64,000 nt of DNA, taken from positions 1 through 64,000 of the forward strand of contig NZ_BLZO01000115.1 in the NCBI RefSeq assembly GCF_014132355.1, in the 5' to 3' direction. Position 1 is the first letter of the stretch; every line of letters begins with the position of its first letter. This document shows positions 31,770 to 42,482 of this stretch, piece by piece. Position numbers and translations under genes: made by a program. Source of the DNA: Okeania sp. KiyG1. Its GTDB lineage: Bacteria > Cyanobacteriota > Cyanobacteriia > Cyanobacteriales > Microcoleaceae. The notes below the pieces were generated by a model that did not search any database, was not told the DNA's origin, and saw nothing but the letters and a program-made list of their open reading frames with translations.

Positions 31770-34700
31770 TTAACCGAAATCGCCGCACAGGTGGCGATCG
31801 CTCTGTTCTAACTGTTGATTGGTTTGTAGATAATCTTTTACCCAATTGCAAGCATAACCTAGTTTGTCAAGCTGAAGAATCCGATCCAAATTCCACAGAA
31901 TGATTGTGCGATCGCTACTAGCAGAAGCGAGAATTTTTCCATCAGGACTAAAAGCAACTCCTCTAACTCCACCAGAGTGTGCGGTTAGAGTTTTTAATAA
32001 AGTACCGTCAATGTTCCAGAGTTTGACTGTTTTGTCCAAAGAACCAGAGGCAATAATTTTGCCGTCGGGACTAAAGTCTACTCCCCAAATAGAAGCATCA
32101 TGTCCAAAAAAGCTTCTTAATAAGGTCCCATCTGGCTGCCAAAGTTTAAGCATATTATCTGCCCCAGCAGAGGCAATAATCTCACCATCGGGACTAAAAA
32201 CTACACCTCTAACTGTCGATTTATGTCCAGTAAGAGTTCTCAATAACTTTCCGTCCGCCTGCCAGAGTTTAACCGTATTATCAACAGAAGTTGAGGCAAT
32301 TATCTTGCCGTTAGGACTCCAAGTAACGTCTTTAACCTCAGCAGTATGTCCTGTCAAAGTGAGTAAAAATTTGCCATTTGTTTGCCAGAGGTTAACTGTA
32401 TTGTTTCCCAAAGCGGAGGCTATTTTGTCGCCGTCGGGACTAAAGGCAACCCCCCAAAAAACAACATTTTTCTCAAGGGTTTGCAGCAACTTGCCATTTG
32501 TTTGCCAGATTTTAACGCTACGGTCTGCTGATGCTGATGCGAGAGTTCTATTATTAGGGCTAAAATCCACATCAAAAACAATAGCCTGATGTCCTTCCAG
32601 ACTTCTGAGTAACTTACCATTTGTTTGCCAGAGTTTAACGGTGGTATCTGCTGATACAGATGCAAGTAAACTTCCGTCAAAACTCCAGGCGACTGCCCCT
32701 ACCCAATCCTCATGGCCAGTAAGGATTTTATACAAACTGTTGTCAAGTTTCCAGAGTTTTACAGTCTTATCTTCACTCGCAGAGACGATCGTCTTTCCAT
32801 CAGGACTAAAAGCAATATCTCTAACAACAGCACTATGTCCTCTCAAAGTTCTATACAGTCTCCCATCTCGATGCCAGATTTTCACTGTAGTGTCTATCGA
32901 AGCAGAAGCAAGCATTTGTCCGTCAGAACTCCAGGCCAGACGATAAATCATACCATCATTATCGGTTAGAGTATTTAACAACTTGCCGCTTTTGTTCCAA
33001 AGTTTGACTGTTCGATCTTTACTAGCAGCAGCTATGATATCGCCGTCGGGACTAATTGCTACTGATCTGACTCCAACACCAGTTAGAGTATTTAACAACT
33101 TGCCGTTTTTGTTCCAGAGTTTGACGGTTCGATCTGTACTAGCAGAAGCTATAATCTCGCCATCCGAACTAATTGCCACATCAGCAACTTTCATGCTATG
33201 TCCTTTTAATGTTCTCAATAACTTGCCACTTTTGTTCCAGAGTTTAACTGTTTTATCCTCACTAGCAGAGGCAATGATCTTACCGTCGGAACTAAAAGTA
33301 ACTCTTGAAACCGCTCCACTGTGTCCTTTCAATGTTCTCAATAACTTGCCATTTTTATACCACAGCAAGATATTCCCCTGTTCATCACTAGAGGCAATTA
33401 TTTCTCCGTCTGGGCTAAAAGTAACTCCCAAAACCCCCGAATTGTGACTCGTGAAAGTTGTCAACAGCTTACCGTTTTTATTCCAGAGTTTGACGGTTCG
33501 ATCTGCACTAGCAGAGGCAATAAACTCGCCGTCGGGACTAACCGCAACTCCCCAAAGACCCGCACTGTGACCGATTAGGCGATTGTACTCGTCTACCCCA
33601 TACAAGGCTTTCGTAAGTACTAATTCAACTTGGTTTTTGAGCTTTGAGTCTACTTCTCCTAATGTTTGTACTTGATTGTAGGCTTTAATCGCAGACAAAA
33701 GTGCATCTAATCTTTGATGTGAGTTGTAGTTTCCAGTAGAAGAAGAAACTAATGCTTTGATTTCGCTAATTATTGCTTCCTTTTCACGAGTTTCTGCTCG
33801 TTGATATTGTATAAAAGTTATTATTCCCAATCCAGAAACGACTAATAAGGCTAAACTGACTGCACCCAGAAATACCCTTTGTAGCTTCGCAGTTTTTTGC
33901 TCTTGCAGTAATCTTTTTTGTTCCTCTGCCAGTTGTGCTTCAATTGCTTTAGTCTTTTCGGCTTCTAATGCTTTTTGTATTTCCGATTTGTCAAATTCTA
34001 CCGACGCAGCTAAAAATTCATAATCTATATCGCTTAAACTTTTCCCCTGAGACCACTTTTGAGCATCTTTTAATGCCAGTCCCCGCAACAAACGAGATGG
34101 GTCAGTTTTGTTTGATGCTATCCAAGCTTCTAATACCTGAGAATAAGGACGTAGGACATTTAATTGCTTTTCTACCCATTCTGTGTTAAAGACTTCCGCA
34201 TAAATCCGGTTTTTCACCTTCAATAAACCATCCTTTTTCACTACCAAACCAGACAAAATTAGTTCCATTTGTTCTCGAGAGTCATCTATTTTTATTTCTT
34301 TTCTTTGTAAAATAGCCTGATAGATTCCTAATAACTTGGCGGCACGTTTTTCATTTCGTTGAATCCTATCTCTAATTGTTCTTAAATGTTCTGGTTCGTC
34401 TTGTGATTCCCACTTGTGCAGTATCTTCGTTCTCACTATGCTTTCCACCCAAAATTTTTCGTTCCCTGGGGGAATAGTGAGAATTTCACTGACTGAATCT
34501 CGACTAGCTTCAACCACTAATTTACATAACTTTTGGCTGAGAAATGGTTGCCCATTTGTCCAATACAATATCTGTTTTATAACTTCAAAACTATCTCCTA
34601 TTCCAATTTTTAATCCTGCTGCTAAAGGTTGAACTTGCTCTAATGTAAAACCATCTAGTTCAATGGCGCGACCAATATTAAAAGGAGTTCTAGTTTTATC

Positions 34701-35267
34701 TTTAATTAAATCTGATGGCGTGGCAACCCCAAAAATGCAAAAAGTTATGCGTTTGTATTCTGGATCTATTGCTCGTTGATTATAACAGAATCTGATCAAG
34801 GCAAAAAAGTCATCTACAGAAAAATCTAGACTGAGAATACTATCAATTTCATCTATAAAAATGACAATATTGTTTTCGGGAAATTGTTTGAGCAGAATAT
34901 CACAAATAAAACGACTCAATCTTTGCAGTAAAGAAATATTTTCTTCTTCTTTCCACCATTTTTTCAAATTAACTTTGCCTAAAAGTTGAAACCCCCGCCA
35001 TAACTCACCAGCTACTCCCTTATACCACTGTGTAGGAGTAATATGTTTACTGCCAATATTAGTTAGATCGACAGTGCTACATTTGATACCTTCTTTTTGT
35101 AATTTATGTCTGGTTCTAACTAATAGGGAAGATTTGCCCATTTGACGAGAATTAAGCACATAGCAAAACTCCCCTCGTTTTAAGGCTTCATATAGTTCAG
35201 TGTCAGCAAGTCTTTCGACATAGCTGGGCGAATCATCTTGCAGGCTACCACCAATTTGATACATCAT
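31770..35267 (-). CDS. AAA-like/WD40 STAND-type protein, 14 blades
   Basis: About 1165 residues. The ATG at 35267 has GGAG nine bases upstream and is preferred over the TTG at 35282. The N-terminal AAA-like (AAA_35) NTPase carries Walker A SRQMGKSSLL and Walker B IVIFIDEIDSIL, followed by a winged-helix-like part. A membrane helix (VFLGAVSLALLVVSGLGIIT, about 465-490) separates it from 14 WD40 blades (about 570-1125), enough for two seven-bladed propellers. The C-terminus YACNWVKDYLQTN resembles that of the second WD40 protein here (CDWLQDYFITH). Several blades are nearly identical at DNA level. STAND proteins act as ligand-triggered switches, sometimes in defence; the ligand and output are unknown. 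Confidence 0.85.
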   Translation of the reverse strand: MMYQIGGSLQDDSPSYVERLADTELYEALKRGEFCYVLNSRQMGKSSLLVRTRHKLQKEGIKCSTVDLTNIGSKHITPTQWYKGVAGELWRGFQLLGKVNLKKWWKEEENISLLQRLSRFICDILLKQFPENNIVIFIDEIDSILSLDFSVDDFFALIRFCYNQRAIDPEYKRITFCIFGVATPSDLIKDKTRTPFNIGRAIELDGFTLEQVQPLAAGLKIGIGDSFEVIKQILYWTNGQPFLSQKLCKLVVEASRDSVSEILTIPPGNEKFWVESIVRTKILHKWESQDEPEHLRTIRDRIQRNEKRAAKLLGIYQAILQRKEIKIDDSREQMELILSGLVVKKDGLLKVKNRIYAEVFNTEWVEKQLNVLRPYSQVLEAWIASNKTDPSRLLRGLALKDAQKWSQGKSLSDIDYEFLAASVEFDKSEIQKALEAEKTKAIEAQLAEEQKRLLQEQKTAKLQRVFLGAVSLALLVVSGLGIITFIQYQRAETREKEAIISEIKALVSSSTGNYNSHQRLDALLSAIKAYNQVQTLGEVDSKLKNQVELVLTKALYGVDEYNRLIGHSAGLWGVAVSPDGEFIASASADRTVKLWNKNGKLLTTFTSHNSGVLGVTFSPDGEIIASSDEQGNILLWYKNGKLLRTLKGHSGAVSRVTFSSDGKIIASASEDKTVKLWNKSGKLLRTLKGHSMKVADVAISSDGEIIASASTDRTVKLWNKNGKLLNTLTGVGVRSVAISPDGDIIAAASKDRTVKLWNKSGKLLNTLTDNDGMIYRLAWSSDGQMLASASIDTTVKIWHRDGRLYRTLRGHSAVVRDIAFSPDGKTIVSASEDKTVKLWKLDNSLYKILTGHEDWVGAVAWSFDGSLLASVSADTTVKLWQTNGKLLRSLEGHQAIVFDVDFSPNNRTLASASADRSVKIWQTNGKLLQTLEKNVVFWGVAFSPDGDKIASALGNNTVNLWQTNGKFLLTLTGHTAEVKDVTWSPNGKIIASTSVDNTVKLWQADGKLLRTLTGHKSTVRGVVFSPDGEIIASAGADNMLKLWQPDGTLLRSFFGHDASIWGVDFSPDGKIIASGSLDKTVKLWNIDGTLLKTLTAHSGGVRGVAFSPDGKILASASSDRTIILWNLDRILQLDKLGYACNWVKDYLQTNQQLEQSDRHLCGDFG

Positions 35268-35474
35268 AATAGAAATCTCCAAGAATCAAAAATAAAATCA
35301 ATTATTTCCCTCTAATGCCTGCTCCCTATTTTCTGGAGATGTCTAATAGTATCCGGATAATTAGTTATTGTATAGTAGTTCAACTTAAAAATGAGATGTT
35401 TTTAGTCTGAAACTCCCTCATAGCAAGAAAGCTTTGTCTCAATCTAAAGTTAAATGACTATATGAGCACAAGAG

Positions 35475-36348: not shown

Positions 36349-37674
36349 TTAAACCGTATTTTCTTCTTGTTGGTATTGACCAGCAAAATAAAGACGATAC
36401 ATTTGACAGGAGGGGTAAGCGCGATCGCCGTCTAATTTGATGAGTCCCATACTTTCTAGTTTATAAGTCACAATTGGGTTTAACTTGACGCTTTCGCTCG
36501 TCATTACCACCTGATGAAGTGCTGCTGATAGTGTTGGTTTTTTTTGTATGATTTCCCAGTGATGGCGTAAGATACCACCATAAATTCCTCCTTGAGTAGG
36601 AGCTTGTTGTAACAATGTTTCTAATGTTATTTGTGCTTGAGCCAAATGGTAGAGAGCAATACGCACTAAATAAGGATGTCCTCCCACCATTGCCATCAAC
36701 TGCTTAACTCTATCTCCTTCTGTCCAGTTTAGTCCGTGTCTGGTTACTAAATCTTGAATTTGCTTGAAATTAAATTCAGGCAGCTTTATCGGCAATCCTA
36801 TATTAAATGGAGATTGATTAATATCTAGGGATATATACACTTCTGTAGAATGAACTACAACTAAACGCAGTTTTTGAAATAGGGTACTTTGCCTTGCTTG
36901 TTCGTGCCAAGATCGCAGCAGGGGTAAAAATTCTTCAGCGATGTCCGGATGTTCAAAAACTAAATTAATTTCGTTTAAGACCAAAACGATAGGGGTGTCT
37001 ACTTGCCCTAATAAATACCCTTCAAAATAAATCCCGCAACTTACTTTACTACCCATCTCCTCGTCCCAATATTCGTCTAGGAGAGGTTGTAGTTGTAGCT
37101 GGCGAGCTATATTCGCACAAAACCAGCGTAAGAATTTATTTAAGTGGGCATAAACGGCCTTATCTGCTTCCTGAAAGTCTATTTTTACTATTTTGTAGCT
37201 CTGTTGTTGAGCAAAAGCCATAATTCTAAGCAGCAGAGAACTTTTTCCCATTTTCCGAGGTGCTTGAATGCGAGTAACACTCCCAGGTTTAAGAATTTCA
37301 TTGCAGCTCAGTTGTTCCATCGGGGGACGGTCGATATAAAAATGAGAATCTAGGGGGACTGGGCCGTTGGGGTAGGGAGGCGACTTGTCCGGGTTGGCAT
37401 CTCTGAACTGAGGGGTTTCCGGATTAAAGTTGCTTGTCTGGGATGGCACATCAAAATCTAAATCAGCGATTTCTCTCCACGAGAGCATCAATTTATTAGA
37501 CAGTTCTTCAAAAGTCGTAAAGTCAACAGGTTTACCTGTGAGGAAATTGCTGACTGTGGCCAAAGCCAAGCCGACATCCTCAGCCAAAGCTCGCTGGCTG
37601 GGAAAGCCATTACGCCTGACTGCTAGTTTAACTGTTTCAATGCACCCTTGACGAACTTTAAGTGACCTTGGCAT
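36349..37674 (-). CDS. HTH plus AAA-like ATPase
   Basis: 441 residues. Residues about 15-70 form a helix-turn-helix of the lambda-repressor type (SQRALAEDVGLALATVSNFL). A Pro/Asn-rich linker leads to an AAA_35-like ATPase (about 105-400) with Walker A APRKMGKSSLLLRI and a Walker B-like strand TPIVLVLNEINLVF. It lacks the repeat domain of the two WD40 relatives. GAGGAG lies just before the ATG. It is divergent from the peptidoglycan-binding cassette with only 193 bases between, so it may regulate those genes. That is inference. Similar HTH-AAA proteins in cyanobacteria have no assigned function known to me. Confidence 0.75.
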   Translation of the reverse strand: MPRSLKVRQGCIETVKLAVRRNGFPSQRALAEDVGLALATVSNFLTGKPVDFTTFEELSNKLMLSWREIADLDFDVPSQTSNFNPETPQFRDANPDKSPPYPNGPVPLDSHFYIDRPPMEQLSCNEILKPGSVTRIQAPRKMGKSSLLLRIMAFAQQQSYKIVKIDFQEADKAVYAHLNKFLRWFCANIARQLQLQPLLDEYWDEEMGSKVSCGIYFEGYLLGQVDTPIVLVLNEINLVFEHPDIAEEFLPLLRSWHEQARQSTLFQKLRLVVVHSTEVYISLDINQSPFNIGLPIKLPEFNFKQIQDLVTRHGLNWTEGDRVKQLMAMVGGHPYLVRIALYHLAQAQITLETLLQQAPTQGGIYGGILRHHWEIIQKKPTLSAALHQVVMTSESVKLNPIVTYKLESMGLIKLDGDRAYPSCQMYRLYFAGQYQQEENTV

Positions 37675-37867: not shown

Positions 37868-38185
37868 ATGGCTGTATCAACAATGACTGTATCAACAATG
37901 CCAGTATTAAAAGAAGGAGATAGTGGAGATAGTGTTCGGTTTCTTGAACAATTGTTATCCTCAATCTATTGGTTTGGTCTCCAACAAGGTAGACCATCTC
38001 TGATTACAAGTAACGTGAGATTTAATGCCAACTACGATAGTCAATGCCAACAAATAGTAACTGAGTTTCAGGAAAATTATAACGCTACTTTTCCTTTTCC
38101 ATCGCCTGATATTACAGTAGATGGAGTGGTAGGTCCTGAAACATGGAAAGCATTAGGTGATGCTATCTTCAAATACACCTATTAA
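37868..38185 (+). CDS. Peptidoglycan-binding domain protein, single domain
   Basis: 105 residues. The first 20 include a duplicated AVSTMTVSTM start, so the ATG choice is uncertain (37868 or 37883). One PG_binding_1-type domain follows (MPVLKEGDSGDSVRFLEQLL ... ITVDGVVGPETWKALGDAI). The usual LQ.FQ core is represented by VTEFQENYNATFPF. No signal peptide is seen, as in the three genes downstream. It is followed within 140 bases by the first 742-bp unit and probably heads the cassette. Confidence 0.75.
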   Translation: MAVSTMTVSTMPVLKEGDSGDSVRFLEQLLSSIYWFGLQQGRPSLITSNVRFNANYDSQCQQIVTEFQENYNATFPFPSPDITVDGVVGPETWKALGDAIFKYTY

Positions 38186-38240
38186 AACTTAAACACTCTT
38201 GTTGCTAAATATCTAGAGATGTAGCAACAAGAATGTACAA

Positions 38241-38270
38241 ACTCTTGGACTAAAGTCCTGGGGTTCCTGA
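38241..38270 (+). promoter_or_regulatory. Conserved leader hairpin GGACTAAAGTCC before each repeat gene
   Basis: CTTGGACTAAAGTCCTGGGG forms a short stem and recurs at about 38989 and 39731, each time 65-70 bases before the start codon. Between the stem and AGGAG lies CTCATACTCATCTATCC. It could be a leader regulatory structure or an RNA-processing site between co-transcribed copies. Confidence 0.45.
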
Positions 38271-38323
38271 CCAAATCGATATAATTTCTCATACTCATCT
38301 ATCCTAATACAGGAGAATTAACA

Positions 38324-38767
38324 ATGACTTTAAGTGTTTCTAGTTCTTTTTCTTTACCAGTTTTACGCAACGGAAGCAACGGTTCTGATGTAACTCTGAT
38401 ACAACGCCTTCTCAATAATGCTGGCTATGGTTCTTTAGTGGAAGATGGCATCTTTGGTGTTCGCACTGACGCCGCAGTTAAGCAGTTCCAAAAAGACCGA
38501 AGTTTAACAGTGGATGGTATAGTTGGTTCTCAAACTTGGGGAGCTTTACTGCCTCCTACTATTGCTCGGGGTAGCAGCGGTGATGATGTTAAACGTCTGC
38601 AAATGACCCTGAATGAAATGGGCTATTCTCTAGTTGGAGATGGTATTTTTGGTTCCAACACTGAAGCAGCTGTCAAGGAATTCCAAAAAAATAGCAGCTT
38701 AGAAGTTGATGGCATTGTCGGTCCTTTAACTTGGTATGCTCTGATGAGCATTATGATTCAAGACTAA
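38324..38767 (+). CDS. Double peptidoglycan-binding domain protein, copy 1
   Basis: 147 residues made of two PG_binding_1 domains (about 12-76 and 79-143), each with the signature VxxxQxxLNxxGYxLVxDGIFG...AAVKxFQKxxxLxVDGIVGxxTWxAL. It has no signal peptide and no catalytic domain. Such domains bind peptidoglycan or related glycans, usually as part of a larger enzyme. Free-standing twin domains could be an immunity, decoy or structural factor, or be exported by a non-classical route. Differences from copies 2 and 3 are listed under findings. Confidence 0.85.
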   Translation: MTLSVSSSFSLPVLRNGSNGSDVTLIQRLLNNAGYGSLVEDGIFGVRTDAAVKQFQKDRSLTVDGIVGSQTWGALLPPTIARGSSGDDVKRLQMTLNEMGYSLVGDGIFGSNTEAAVKEFQKNSSLEVDGIVGPLTWYALMSIMIQD

Positions 38768-38789
38768 TGATTTTTAGAAAGTACTGGCT

Positions 38790-38890
38790 TAACCCACGCT
38801 CCCGTGTTTAACTGTCCGGTTCGTTCTTCATGGAACTGGCGTTCGCATTCCCAGGAATGTCATTGAGAGCGAGAGCGTGGCAGTCAGAAC
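38790..38890. repeat. Hairpin block resembling an IS200/IS605 end inside the 742-bp unit
   Basis: ACCCACGCTCCCGTGTT ... GAGCGAGAGCGTGG is a complementary pair enclosing TTCGCATTCCCAGGAATG. CTCCCGTGTT is shared with the region upstream of the decayed TnpB (5160-5171). The same block recurs at 39532-39632. It was probably captured before the duplication. Confidence 0.4.
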
Positions 38891-39065
38891 TTTAACTCTG
38901 ACCGATAATGTAGACAAAGGATATTTTAAGCAGGTCAGGTGTTGGCTTGTTTACTTGGAGCGAGCGCAACAAGAATGTACAAACTCTTGGACTAAAGTCC
39001 TGGGGTTCCTGACCAAATCGATCTAATTTCTCATACTCATCTATCCTAATACAGGAGAATTAACA

Positions 39066-39509
39066 ATGACTTTAAGTGTTTCTAGTTCTTTTTCTTTACC
39101 AGTTTTACGCAACGGAAGCAACGGTTATAATGTGACTCTGATACAAAGCCTTCTCAATGATGCTGGCTATGGTTCTTTAGTGGCAGATGGTATCTTTGGT
39201 GTTCGCACTGACGCCGCAGTTAAGCAGTTCCAAAAAGACCGAAATTTAACAGTGGATGGTATAGTTGGTTCTCAAACTTGGGAAGCTTTACTGCCTCCTA
39301 CTATTGCTCGGGGTAGCAGCAGTGATGATGTTGAACGTCTGCAAATGACCCTGAATGAAATGGGCTATTCTCTAGTTGGAGATGGTATTTTTGGTTCCAA
39401 CACTGAAGCAGCTGTCAAGGAATTCCAAAAAAATAGCAGCTTAGAAGTTGATGGCATTGTCGGTCCTTTAACTTGGTATGCTCTGATGAGCATTATGATT
39501 CAAGACTAA
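39066..39509 (+). CDS. Double peptidoglycan-binding domain protein, copy 2
   Basis: Same architecture and length as copy 1. It differs by S21Y, D22N, R28S, N32D, E40A, S60N, G73E, G86S and K90E, all in the first domain or the start of the second, with only two synonymous changes (codons 23 and 42). The rest of the second domain is identical. Leader and downstream spacer are identical or nearly identical to those of copy 1. Confidence 0.85.
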   Translation: MTLSVSSSFSLPVLRNGSNGYNVTLIQSLLNDAGYGSLVADGIFGVRTDAAVKQFQKDRNLTVDGIVGSQTWEALLPPTIARGSSSDDVERLQMTLNEMGYSLVGDGIFGSNTEAAVKEFQKNSSLEVDGIVGPLTWYALMSIMIQD

Positions 39510-39807
39510 TGATTTTTAGAAAGTACTGGCTTAACCCACGCTCCCGTGTTTAACTGTCCGGTTCGTTCTTCATGGAACTGGCGTTCGCATTCCCAGGAAT
39601 GTCATTGAGAGCGAGAGCGTGGCAGTCAGAACTTTAACTCTGACCGATAATGTAGACAAAGGATATTTTAAGCAGGTCAGGTGTTGGCTTGTTTACTTGG
39701 AGCGAGCGCAACAAGAATGTACAAACTCTTGGACTAAAGTCCTGGGGTTCCTGACCAAATCGATCTAATTTCTCATACTCATCTATCCTAATACAGGAGA
39801 ATTAACA

Positions 39808-40251
39808 ATGACTTTAAGTGTTTCTAGTTCTTTTTCTTTACCAGTTTTACGCAACGGAAGCAACGGTTCTGATGTGACTCTGGTACAACGCCTTCTCAAT
39901 AATGCTGGCTATGGTTCTTTAGTGGAAGATGGCATCTTTGGTGTTCGCACTGACGCCGCAGTTAAGCAGTTCCAAAAAGACCGAAATTTAACAGTGGATG
40001 GTATAGTTGGTTCTCAAACTTGGGGAGCTTTACTGCCTCCTACTATTGCTCGGGGTAGCAGCAGTGATGATGTTGAACGTCTGCAAATGATCCTGAATGA
40101 AATGGGCTATTCTCTAGTTAGAGATGGTATTTTTGGTTCCAACACTGAAGCAGCTGTCAAGAGATTCCAAAAAAATAGCAGCTTAGAAGTTGATGGCATT
40201 GTCGGTCCTTTAACTTGGTATGCTCTGATGAGCACTATGATTCAAGACTAA
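39808..40251 (+). CDS. Double peptidoglycan-binding domain protein, copy 3
   Basis: Same architecture. Residues private to this copy are V26, I95, R105, R119 and T143; none of the private base changes is silent. At positions 21-40 it matches copy 1, at 60, 86 and 90 it matches copy 2, a mosaic that suggests exchange between copies. The downstream sequence differs from the common spacer, so the tandem ends here. Confidence 0.85.
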   Translation: MTLSVSSSFSLPVLRNGSNGSDVTLVQRLLNNAGYGSLVEDGIFGVRTDAAVKQFQKDRNLTVDGIVGSQTWGALLPPTIARGSSSDDVERLQMILNEMGYSLVRDGIFGSNTEAAVKRFQKNSSLEVDGIVGPLTWYALMSTMIQD

Positions 40252-40698
40252 TGATTAACGATTTTTAGGTTGTATTATCGCGTGGGAGTTAACTGCTCCC
40301 ACTTCTGACTTCAGTTATTCTCACCTATCTTAAATATAACAGGACTTACGCAAAGGCACTATGTATAGAGTTCAGTAACTATTGGACAATAGTTTTGAGT
40401 ACTATATATAGCGTATCTGCGTAAGTCTAATATAAAACATTCTAGCGCATTTTAGACCGCTATTAATTTACAGCGTTTTCTGTTGTTATGAGGTACAAAA
40501 TTTTAGGTTTGAGGGAACAGGGAACAGGGAACAGCGGTGCGACCCCGCGTCGGCGTCAGACGCAAGCGGTCAGACCCCGCGACGACGCCAGCTCGCTTGC
40601 GGAATGCTGACCAAGAGAGGGAACGCGCACTCCTGTGAGGGAACAGAAAAGAATAAAAACTACTGTACCTCATAGCTTCGGAAACTGCTGTAGAAAAC
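40252..40698. other. Gap after the cassette with a MITE and a GC-rich repeat
   Basis: Contains the MITE at 40340-40427 and a GC-rich block (about 40528-40640: GGTGCGACCCCGCG, GCGACGACGCCAG, GGGAACGCGCAC) that is also found near 21139 and inside the tnpB at 55825-55870. No gene seen. Confidence 0.55.
40340..40427. repeat. MITE with CAGGACTTACGCA ends, copy 2
   Basis: 88 bp bounded by CAGGACTTACGCA and TGCGTAAGTC. The last three bases of the right end differ from the family. Confidence 0.6.
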
Positions 40699-41187: not shown

Positions 41188-41846
41188 TTGACCATTAAAC
41201 TGTAACAACTTGGTTATTTATCCCAGATTTGTAGGCTGAAATACCCAATTTGCGAGGGGGAAAAACACTTCATAATTCTTTACAAACAACCTCTTATATC
41301 ATGTCCGGATAATTAGTTATAAAAAAACTTTCTCCTTCAACTCCAGTTCTTCTTCTTCTTTCTTCCCTCTTTCCTCCTGACTCCTGACCCCTGACTCCTG
41401 ACTCCTCCGTAGTTATTTATTTATCACTGTTCAACCGGACATGATATTAGATGATCAGGAATTCAAATATCCTCCTAATGATGTAGATAAATACTGAAAA
41501 CCTAAAATCAATTTCAGTGTTAAACTAAGCAAGCTCATTTCCAGATTGATTCTTTTATAGAACCTGCTCGTTTTCAGAACCGGACATGAGATTTTGACCT
41601 CATCCGACTTCTCTGTTAAGCGTCCCTTGTCATGGGTACATCCTTAAAATTCCACCTTGGACTTAATGAGTCCATAATGGTTAACTGCTTTTGGCGTTGC
41701 ACAGTGATGAATGATTTGAGATTTTTGATGAATAGGATTTTGGATTCTAGAATTGCTAGAATGATTAATATTCGGTTTTTTTAGTCAAAGTATAAACCAA
41801 TTTCTTGCAGTATCATTCGAGAATGTGCAATCCCATTGTTTTGATT
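41188..41846. other. Gene-free region with a MITE
   Basis: Contains the MITE at 41296-41447 and a lone end AACCGGACATGAGAT near 41579. The part from 41600 to 41846 shows nothing recognisable. Confidence 0.5.
41296..41447. repeat. MITE with ATATCATGTCCG ends, copy 3
   Basis: 152 bp bounded by ATATCATGTCCGG and CCGGACATGATAT, with GACTCCT heptamers inside. Confidence 0.65.
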
Positions 41847-42482
41847 ATGAATAACAAATTTTTGCTTGCGATTATTCCCTTATATTTTGGCTTTGCTTGT
41901 ACCTATCCAGCAATGGCCTTAAATAATTTTACTAACATCAAAACTGAACAAAAAAGCTTAGAGGAAAATCAAATTATATTAGCCGATCGCAAAGATAAAT
42001 ATCGCATTCGATCTCGTCAAAAGGAAGATGAGTACCGACAAAGAAAAAGGCATGAACTACACGAAAGAATCGATCGCAGGATTAAACGAGAGATGGATAA
42101 ACCTCATAACCGAAGTCTTCCTAAAGCAGAAAAAGAAAGAATTATTCAAGAAGCTCACGACGACCTAGACCGCAGACTTGACCGCAAATGGAATACTTTA
42201 GAAAATTATCGACTACGAATACGAAAAAGACGCGACAGATACGACCGGGACTATGATTATGGGCGAAGACGCGGCAGATACCACCGGAATTATGATTATG
42301 GGCGAAGACGTGGCAGATACCACCGGGACTATGATTATGGGCGAAGACGCGACAGGTATGACCGGGATTATGATTCTTATAACAGAAATTGTGACTATTA
42401 TGGCAATTGTCACTACTTTGAAAATCGGCCTAGAAATATTAGAAGAAACATTAGATTCAAATACTATCCCAACCGTAATTAA
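41847..42482 (+). CDS. Secreted RDY/Arg-rich repeat protein
   Basis: 211 residues from the ATG at 41847. The ORF can be extended to 41805 but the extra codons precede a clear signal peptide (MNNKFLLAIIPLYFGFACTY, cleaved near PAMA). The mature N-terminus is charged and helical (RQKEDEYRQRKRHELHERID). The C-terminal half has 13-residue repeats of the type YDYGRRRGRYHRD (39-base DNA units at 42236-42365) and ends NIRRNIRFKYYPNRN. I know no function. The composition suggests an extracytoplasmic, nucleic-acid- or polysaccharide-binding protein, as inference only. A truncated copy lies at 31138. Confidence 0.7.
   Translation: MNNKFLLAIIPLYFGFACTYPAMALNNFTNIKTEQKSLEENQIILADRKDKYRIRSRQKEDEYRQRKRHELHERIDRRIKREMDKPHNRSLPKAEKERIIQEAHDDLDRRLDRKWNTLENYRLRIRKRRDRYDRDYDYGRRRGRYHRNYDYGRRRGRYHRDYDYGRRRDRYDRDYDSYNRNCDYYGNCHYFENRPRNIRRNIRFKYYPNRN
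42236..42365 (+). repeat. 39-bp tandem repeats in the RDY protein gene
   Basis: Three near-identical units encoding GRRRGRYHR(D/N)YDY. The period preserves the frame. Confidence 0.8.

Follow-up and report, generated by a model that had tools for sequence, protein, structure and literature searches.

Selection and recombination in a tandem array of two-domain PG_binding_1 genes of Okeania

How can neighbouring gene copies differ mainly at amino acid-changing positions when the spacers between them are identical? This question is raised by three tandem genes in a stretch of 64,000 nucleotides from Okeania sp. KiyG1 (the window in the following), which is located on contig C115 of a draft genome of 10.98 Mb in 198 contigs with a completeness of 92%. 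The genes have a length of 444 bp (147 amino acids) each, are located on the + strand with a period of 742 bp and comprise gene 1 (38324-38767), whose product contains two PG_binding_1 domains according to Pfam, gene 2 (39066-39509), a hybrid copy in the middle of the array, and gene 3 (39808-40251), the last copy, which is 95% identical to gene 1. Genes 1 and 2 were scanned and exceed the gathering cut-off of the PG_binding_1 family (PF01471), which is 23 bits, with 140.2 and 137.6 bits, respectively, in two stretches each. Spacer 1 (38768-39065) and spacer 2 (39510-39807), both of 298 bp, are identical.

Copies 1 and 2 differ at 11 nucleotides (9 of them causing replacements), copies 1 and 3 at 10 (9), and copies 2 and 3 at 13 (12). 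Fourteen residues vary among the three copies (21, 22, 26, 28, 32, 40, 60, 73, 86, 90, 95, 105, 119, and 143) and silent variation is present in two codons (23 and 42); within the window, five replacements are confined to copy 3, which has no silent change of its own. The original prediction had reported the 11 differences between copies 1 and 2, the varying residues, the silent codons, the private replacements of copy 3 and the identical spacers, and all these counts were reproduced exactly. We consider it probable that the array as a whole is explained by diversifying selection and the shuffling of alleles, together with the recent formation of a third copy by unequal crossing-over.

Duplication history and genomic context of the array

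All 11 differences between unit 1 and unit 2 (gene plus spacer) are confined to a variable block of 207 bp within gene 1 (38385-38591, + strand, codons 21-90). The chance that 11 of 11 differences fall into a block of this size is P ~8e-7, the block having been picked post hoc. At an offset of 742, the longest perfect tract has a length of 535 bp (38592-39126, identical to 39334-39868) and comprises the final 57 codons of gene 1, the complete spacer and codons 1-20 of gene 2. From codon 91 on, gene 2 is identical to gene 1, its codon 26 also corresponds to gene 1, its codons 23, 60, 86, and 90 correspond to gene 3, and its codons 21, 22, 28, 32, 40, 42, and 73 differ from both neighbours. The variable codons 21-42 of gene 2 are those of the second copy of Okeania SIO2B3. 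Judged by these matches, copy 2 is a plainer hybrid than copy 3.

In the scheme that we propose, the ancestor would have consisted of gene A, a single spacer and gene B, the two genes being already diverged, and a crossover between A and B would have yielded the order A-spacer-(B/A)-spacer-B, i.e. unequal crossing-over within the genes would have converted the usual two-copy state into a recent three-copy state. Such an origin would leave identical spacers beside unlike genes, and the identity of the 3' part of gene 2 with gene 1 and of four of its codons with gene 3 is as predicted for an A/B crossover. The pattern of matches strongly indicates that the three-copy state was made recently from two copies in this manner, and the 535-bp tract can be read as the footprint of the event. 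As a two-part hybrid gene 2 is imperfect, which counts against our explanation; its seven codons unlike those of genes 1 and 3 suggest that a further allele or a conversion took part.

The original prediction had taken the slow spacer as evidence for selection. This argument fails, since a single spacer and two already unlike genes are likely to have been present in the ancestor: the differences are clustered in 207 bp, the perfect tract runs across gene and spacer, and spacer identity is a mark of recent duplication rather than of selection. Between genomes, the 298-bp spacers are 5-9% different (four genomes compared), which is close to the value for silent sites of the genes (pooled pS 0.050). 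The case shows that identical spacers next to unlike genes can arise from a two-gene, one-spacer ancestor, no selection on the spacer being required.

The two-copy state is found in five named relatives (SIO2C9, L036; SIO2B3, L037; O. hirsuta, L038; SIO2F4, L039; CS-953, L041), each of which has two genes and one spacer region; both genes of CS-953 contain N. The intergenic stretch is 298 bp long in three of these relatives and is extended by inserted DNA to 1,847 bp in SIO2C9 and to 709 bp in O. hirsuta. Between both array genes of SIO2C9, a reading frame of 381 amino acids is located (L036:5072-6217), which presumably resembles a transposon gene. SIO2F4 has an additional, more distant copy elsewhere (L040). 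Two genomes of the same genus without a whole copy (G001 and G005) retain only 5' and 3' remnants of array genes (L128:6312-6414, L217:2182-2261), which indicates that the array also gets lost. A crossover footprint is thus accompanied by changes in copy number, as arrays of two or three copies and genomes with remnants only are found.

With a threshold of E 1e-25, matches to the array were present in 7 of 60 relatives searched, and with a profile in 13 of 62 genomes of the family, the closest named matches being Okeania and Hydrocoleum records. Viral contigs contain 143 relatives, of which the best 80 were taken, and no best segment exceeds 59% identity among the matches listed; in three viral contigs (L130, L133, and L134) the match lies within larger proteins of 596, 332, and 540 amino acids, respectively. 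Matches were also obtained in 146 plasmid records, all below 60% identity. In open-licence papers, to which the literature search was limited, no title on this array was found.

In the 100 bp upstream that are common to all three genes, the sole difference is located at position 38281 (equivalent to 39023 and 39765), the second base of a TATAAT-like hexamer, which reads TATAAT before gene 1 (38280-38285, + strand) and TCTAAT before genes 2 and 3 (39022-39027 and 39764-39769, + strand). Across species this base is A, C or T. The hexamer resembles a -10 element and is inferred to be a candidate promoter element. The palindrome GGACTAAAGTCC (38247-38258, + strand) was recognized by eye upstream of each of the three genes, and in relatives it reads GGACT..AGTCC or GGAGT..ACTCC, a paired change, and is imperfect in some; an operator or a hairpin is possible. 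The array is preceded by a conserved partner gene (37868-38185, + strand), which encodes 105 amino acids with a partial PG_binding_1 domain. Two AAA_35 genes, one of them fused to WD40 repeats, adjoin the array (31770-35282 and 36349-37674, - strand), and the one at 36349-37674 is kept beside the array in SIO2C9 and SIO2B3. On the other side, direct repeats in 39-bp steps (42227-42414) are located within an open reading frame (41805-42482) without a Pfam match. No toxin family was present among the Pfam matches listed for seven window proteins between 31.8 and 45.5 kb (for the WD40 protein, 25 of 54 families).

Alleles in common and recombination between copies

For 13 of the 14 variable residues of the window, both codon alleles are present in other species, only Ser60 being private. 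The five replacements of copy 3 had been regarded as new and private; all of them occur in copies of other species, including Arg119, which is two bases away from Glu and is common to a SIO2C9 copy. The shared alleles include silent ones. Within at least one of five genomes, 47 residues vary, and 20 of these vary in more than one genome. Of 861 informative site pairs, 500 are incompatible with a single tree. When one copy per genome was used, the mean incompatible fraction was 0.57 (48 combinations) versus 66 of 276 pairs for the partner gene, with five genomes each.

These incompatibilities, the shared alleles and the 535-bp tract bear out the recombination between copies that the original prediction had proposed. 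They show that alleles were shuffled among the copies, the route being, as we infer, homologous recombination, and alleles were probably shuffled among species in the same way. In a PHI-like test, compatible sites are weakly clustered along the gene (p 0.04), so that changes arising in parallel at identical sites may add to, or replace, recombination.

Exchange of whole blocks between species by homologous recombination under ordinary selection, with the shared alleles being transfers only, would account for the alleles in common, silent ones included, and for the higher incompatibility than in the partner gene. We regard it as an unlikely sole explanation, since transfer alone does not lift replacements over silent changes and none of the 160 neutral alignments simulated with and without recombination (see below) reaches the one-tree value of the site tests.

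Selection and the source of the changes

Within the window alone, the shortage of silent changes is not significant, as the probability of at most 2 silent changes among 17 is 0.18, 0.12, and 0.08 at kappa values of 1, 2, and 4, respectively. The codon models included 11 copies from five genomes, i.e. the three copies of the window and eight from four related genomes. The distant L040 copy, both CS-953 copies, which contain N, and eight codon columns that gene 1 lacks, which stem from insertions in the SIO2F4 and O. hirsuta copies, were excluded. Likelihoods were calculated with a program written for this analysis (GY-type, F3x4), which is unchecked against PAML.

The 11 copies contain 60 variable codons, 50 with replacements and 10 silent, and the pooled pN/pS is 1.31 over 55 pairs. 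Model M2a is favoured over M1a with a 2ΔlnL of 42.7 on one tree, with 26% of the sites at an omega of 4.9, and M8 over M8a with 42.1. With a separate tree per segment, the M2a/M1a values are 45.5 (two segments), 44.7 (three), and 22.0 (six). As a null, M1a was used to simulate four sets of 40 alignments (160 in total), in which the tip labels were either left in place or reshuffled at intervals of 25, 5 or 1 codons, and all were analysed with one tree. Their maximum was 26.7; one of 160 reached 22 and none reached 42. Recombination inflates the site tests, because 18 of the 40 free-recombination alignments exceeded 5.99 and one was above 22; these are one-tree nulls only, the six-segment value of 22.0 having no null of its own. 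A site class with an omega above 1 that is robust to recombination was obtained, and the two-domain PG_binding_1 family in Okeania and close relatives is, as shown by analysis of the sequences, under positive diversifying selection at residues that surround a nearly invariant binding motif. The diversifying selection of the original prediction is thereby supported when the eight copies of the four related genomes are included. M2a is also favoured in subsets, namely among first copies (omega 1.50, 2ΔlnL 25.2) and last copies (omega 0.98, 2ΔlnL 20.0), and the window together with SIO2C9 and SIO2B3 gives an omega of 1.40 (35.4). The controls have omega values of 0.20 (partner gene, 12 sequences), 0.14 (AAA_35 gene, 3), and 0.23 (a gene common to SIO2C9 and SIO2B3, 2); the WD40 gene was dropped as a control, its alignment being out of frame with 631 of 649 codons variable.

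Neutral or relaxed drift following the duplication, in which silent changes happened to be scarce, would fit the values of the window alone, and also the mean omega of M0, which at 1.23 is not significantly greater than 1 (2ΔlnL 0.92). A tree-free count of 15 silent versus 71 replacement changes gives P = 0.006-0.09 depending on kappa. We nevertheless consider drift improbable, because the site models lie far beyond the neutral simulations, whose omega had a maximum of 0.81, and because about half of the codons are strongly constrained in the fitted models. The mean omega of M0, the last-copy omega of 0.98 and the pairwise omega values of 0.51-0.64 against the distant L040 copy count against the reading that we prefer, as do weaker or mixed signals in related families. 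A second two-domain PG-binding family is present in Okeania and relatives (L038:1402-1860, L129:426-878, L210:1501-1956, and L211:1492-1968). Three of its sequences, one of them partial, gave an omega of 1.16, and four full ones gave 0.55 with a 2ΔlnL of 8.7, the set of eight matches being tested without three partial ones and L213; no claim of generality is made in view of these two values. For another genus of the family, seven copies (an eighth with masked bases was excluded) yielded an omega of 0.49 and a 2ΔlnL of 16.8, which is within the free-recombination null range (maximum 26.7).

An assembly artefact of a repeat is suggested by the draft state of the genome (198 contigs) and by repeats of 742 bp, whose copy number is that of the draft assembly. 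It is very improbable, as the two-copy design, and likewise the alleles and the spacer, recur in other genomes that were assembled separately.

The original prediction had also pointed to a diversity-generating retroelement and a search for its template. Its statement that most differences have an A in one allele holds for the window, where the 17 variable nucleotides comprise 11 A/G, 3 A/C, and 3 C/T sites (A involved in 14 of 17) and A occurs at 13 of 15 replacement sites (P = 0.012, composition model), and the genome contains 36 RVT_1 matches. That such an element writes the changes is hardly credible and was rejected: none of the 36 matches lies on contig C115; the own genome, searched with E up to 1, contains no further gene-like stretch beyond hits of 20-25 bp, and eight genomes, as draft genomes, contain only arrays, family relatives and remnants and no template repeat; among the 11 copies, the excess of A falls to 45 of 69 replacement sites (P = 0.067) and no A is involved at 30 of 72 biallelic sites, so that changes are not limited to template adenines; and the variation is spread along the gene, with few alleles that are common to several species.

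The binding motif and comparison with known systems

PG_binding_1 domains are usually viewed as passive anchors. The DGxxGxxTxxxPhi motifs of these domains have been assigned an important role in the recognition of ligands, and the residues that correspond to Phe487 and Thr503 of ExeA have been named as critical (PMC12547810). The array proteins contain four DGxxGxxTxxxPhi motifs, which start at residues 41, 64, 106, and 129, and the D, G, G, and T of the motif are invariant in the 11 copies with the sole exception of G107S in one. Counted from the motif, Phe487 would correspond to F55 and F120, the latter being Tyr in one copy. Residues 40 and 105, directly before two of the motifs, vary, as do residues 119, 124, and 125, and the charge changes at 20 of the 50 variable residues. 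This pattern is consistent with a conserved function in wall binding and with surroundings that change, and the near-invariance of the motif argues mildly against the recognition of variable glycans; near-invariant motif and varying surroundings would rather favour a protein opponent.

We tentatively suggest that the proteins would bind peptidoglycan through the conserved motif, and that the changing surface would be a protein-protein interface in an arms race whose other party targets the wall, for example a phage lysin or the hydrolase or toxin of a competitor. No obvious signal peptide was recognized in the proteins by eye, and the absence of an obvious export signal from wall-binding proteins counts against our explanation. 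A doubtful further reading is that of a recognition locus with trans-species polymorphism, in which the peptidoglycan-binding proteins of a multicellular cyanobacterium would keep a limited number of old alleles at many residues across species and copies, reshuffled by recombination, so that self, rivals or phage enzymes would be recognized at the wall. A fixed motif, diversifying surroundings and interspecies alleles together point to a molecular conflict, so far unseen, that filamentous cyanobacteria face at their cell wall, and the array supplies a small set of residues and naturally occurring alleles for a partner search.

The PG_binding_1 domains of endolysins and hydrolases (3bkh, 6tci, 1lbu) belong to the same family by sequence, and the DGxxGxxTxxxPhi motif is kept in the array proteins; in contrast to these enzymes, the array proteins have no catalytic domain within their 147 residues, consist of two binding domains alone and evolve fast. 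Eukaryotic histocompatibility and allorecognition genes would be similar if the polymorphism were trans-specific, as old alleles are kept and reshuffled. The staphylococcal lpl tandem genes, whose products are lipoproteins, differ from the array in protein family and organism. Diversity-generating retroelements, described for diversified candidate sensors of multicellular bacteria (PMC10907252), resemble the case in such diversification, whereas no template repeat was found for the array, no reverse transcriptase lies on its contig and non-A changes are common across species. The esaG/tipC immunity arrays of type VII secretion consist of tandem non-identical paralogues with similar intergenic regions, and recombination between conserved blocks expands and deletes genes and creates mosaics (PMC9484751). 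Tandem paralogues, similar intergenic regions and recombination that changes copy number and makes mosaics are common to both systems; the esaG/tipC products are immunity proteins to known toxins, whereas PG_binding_1 proteins are encoded here. In this recombining mode, the Okeania array works like the esaG/tipC strings, which are the closest known case.
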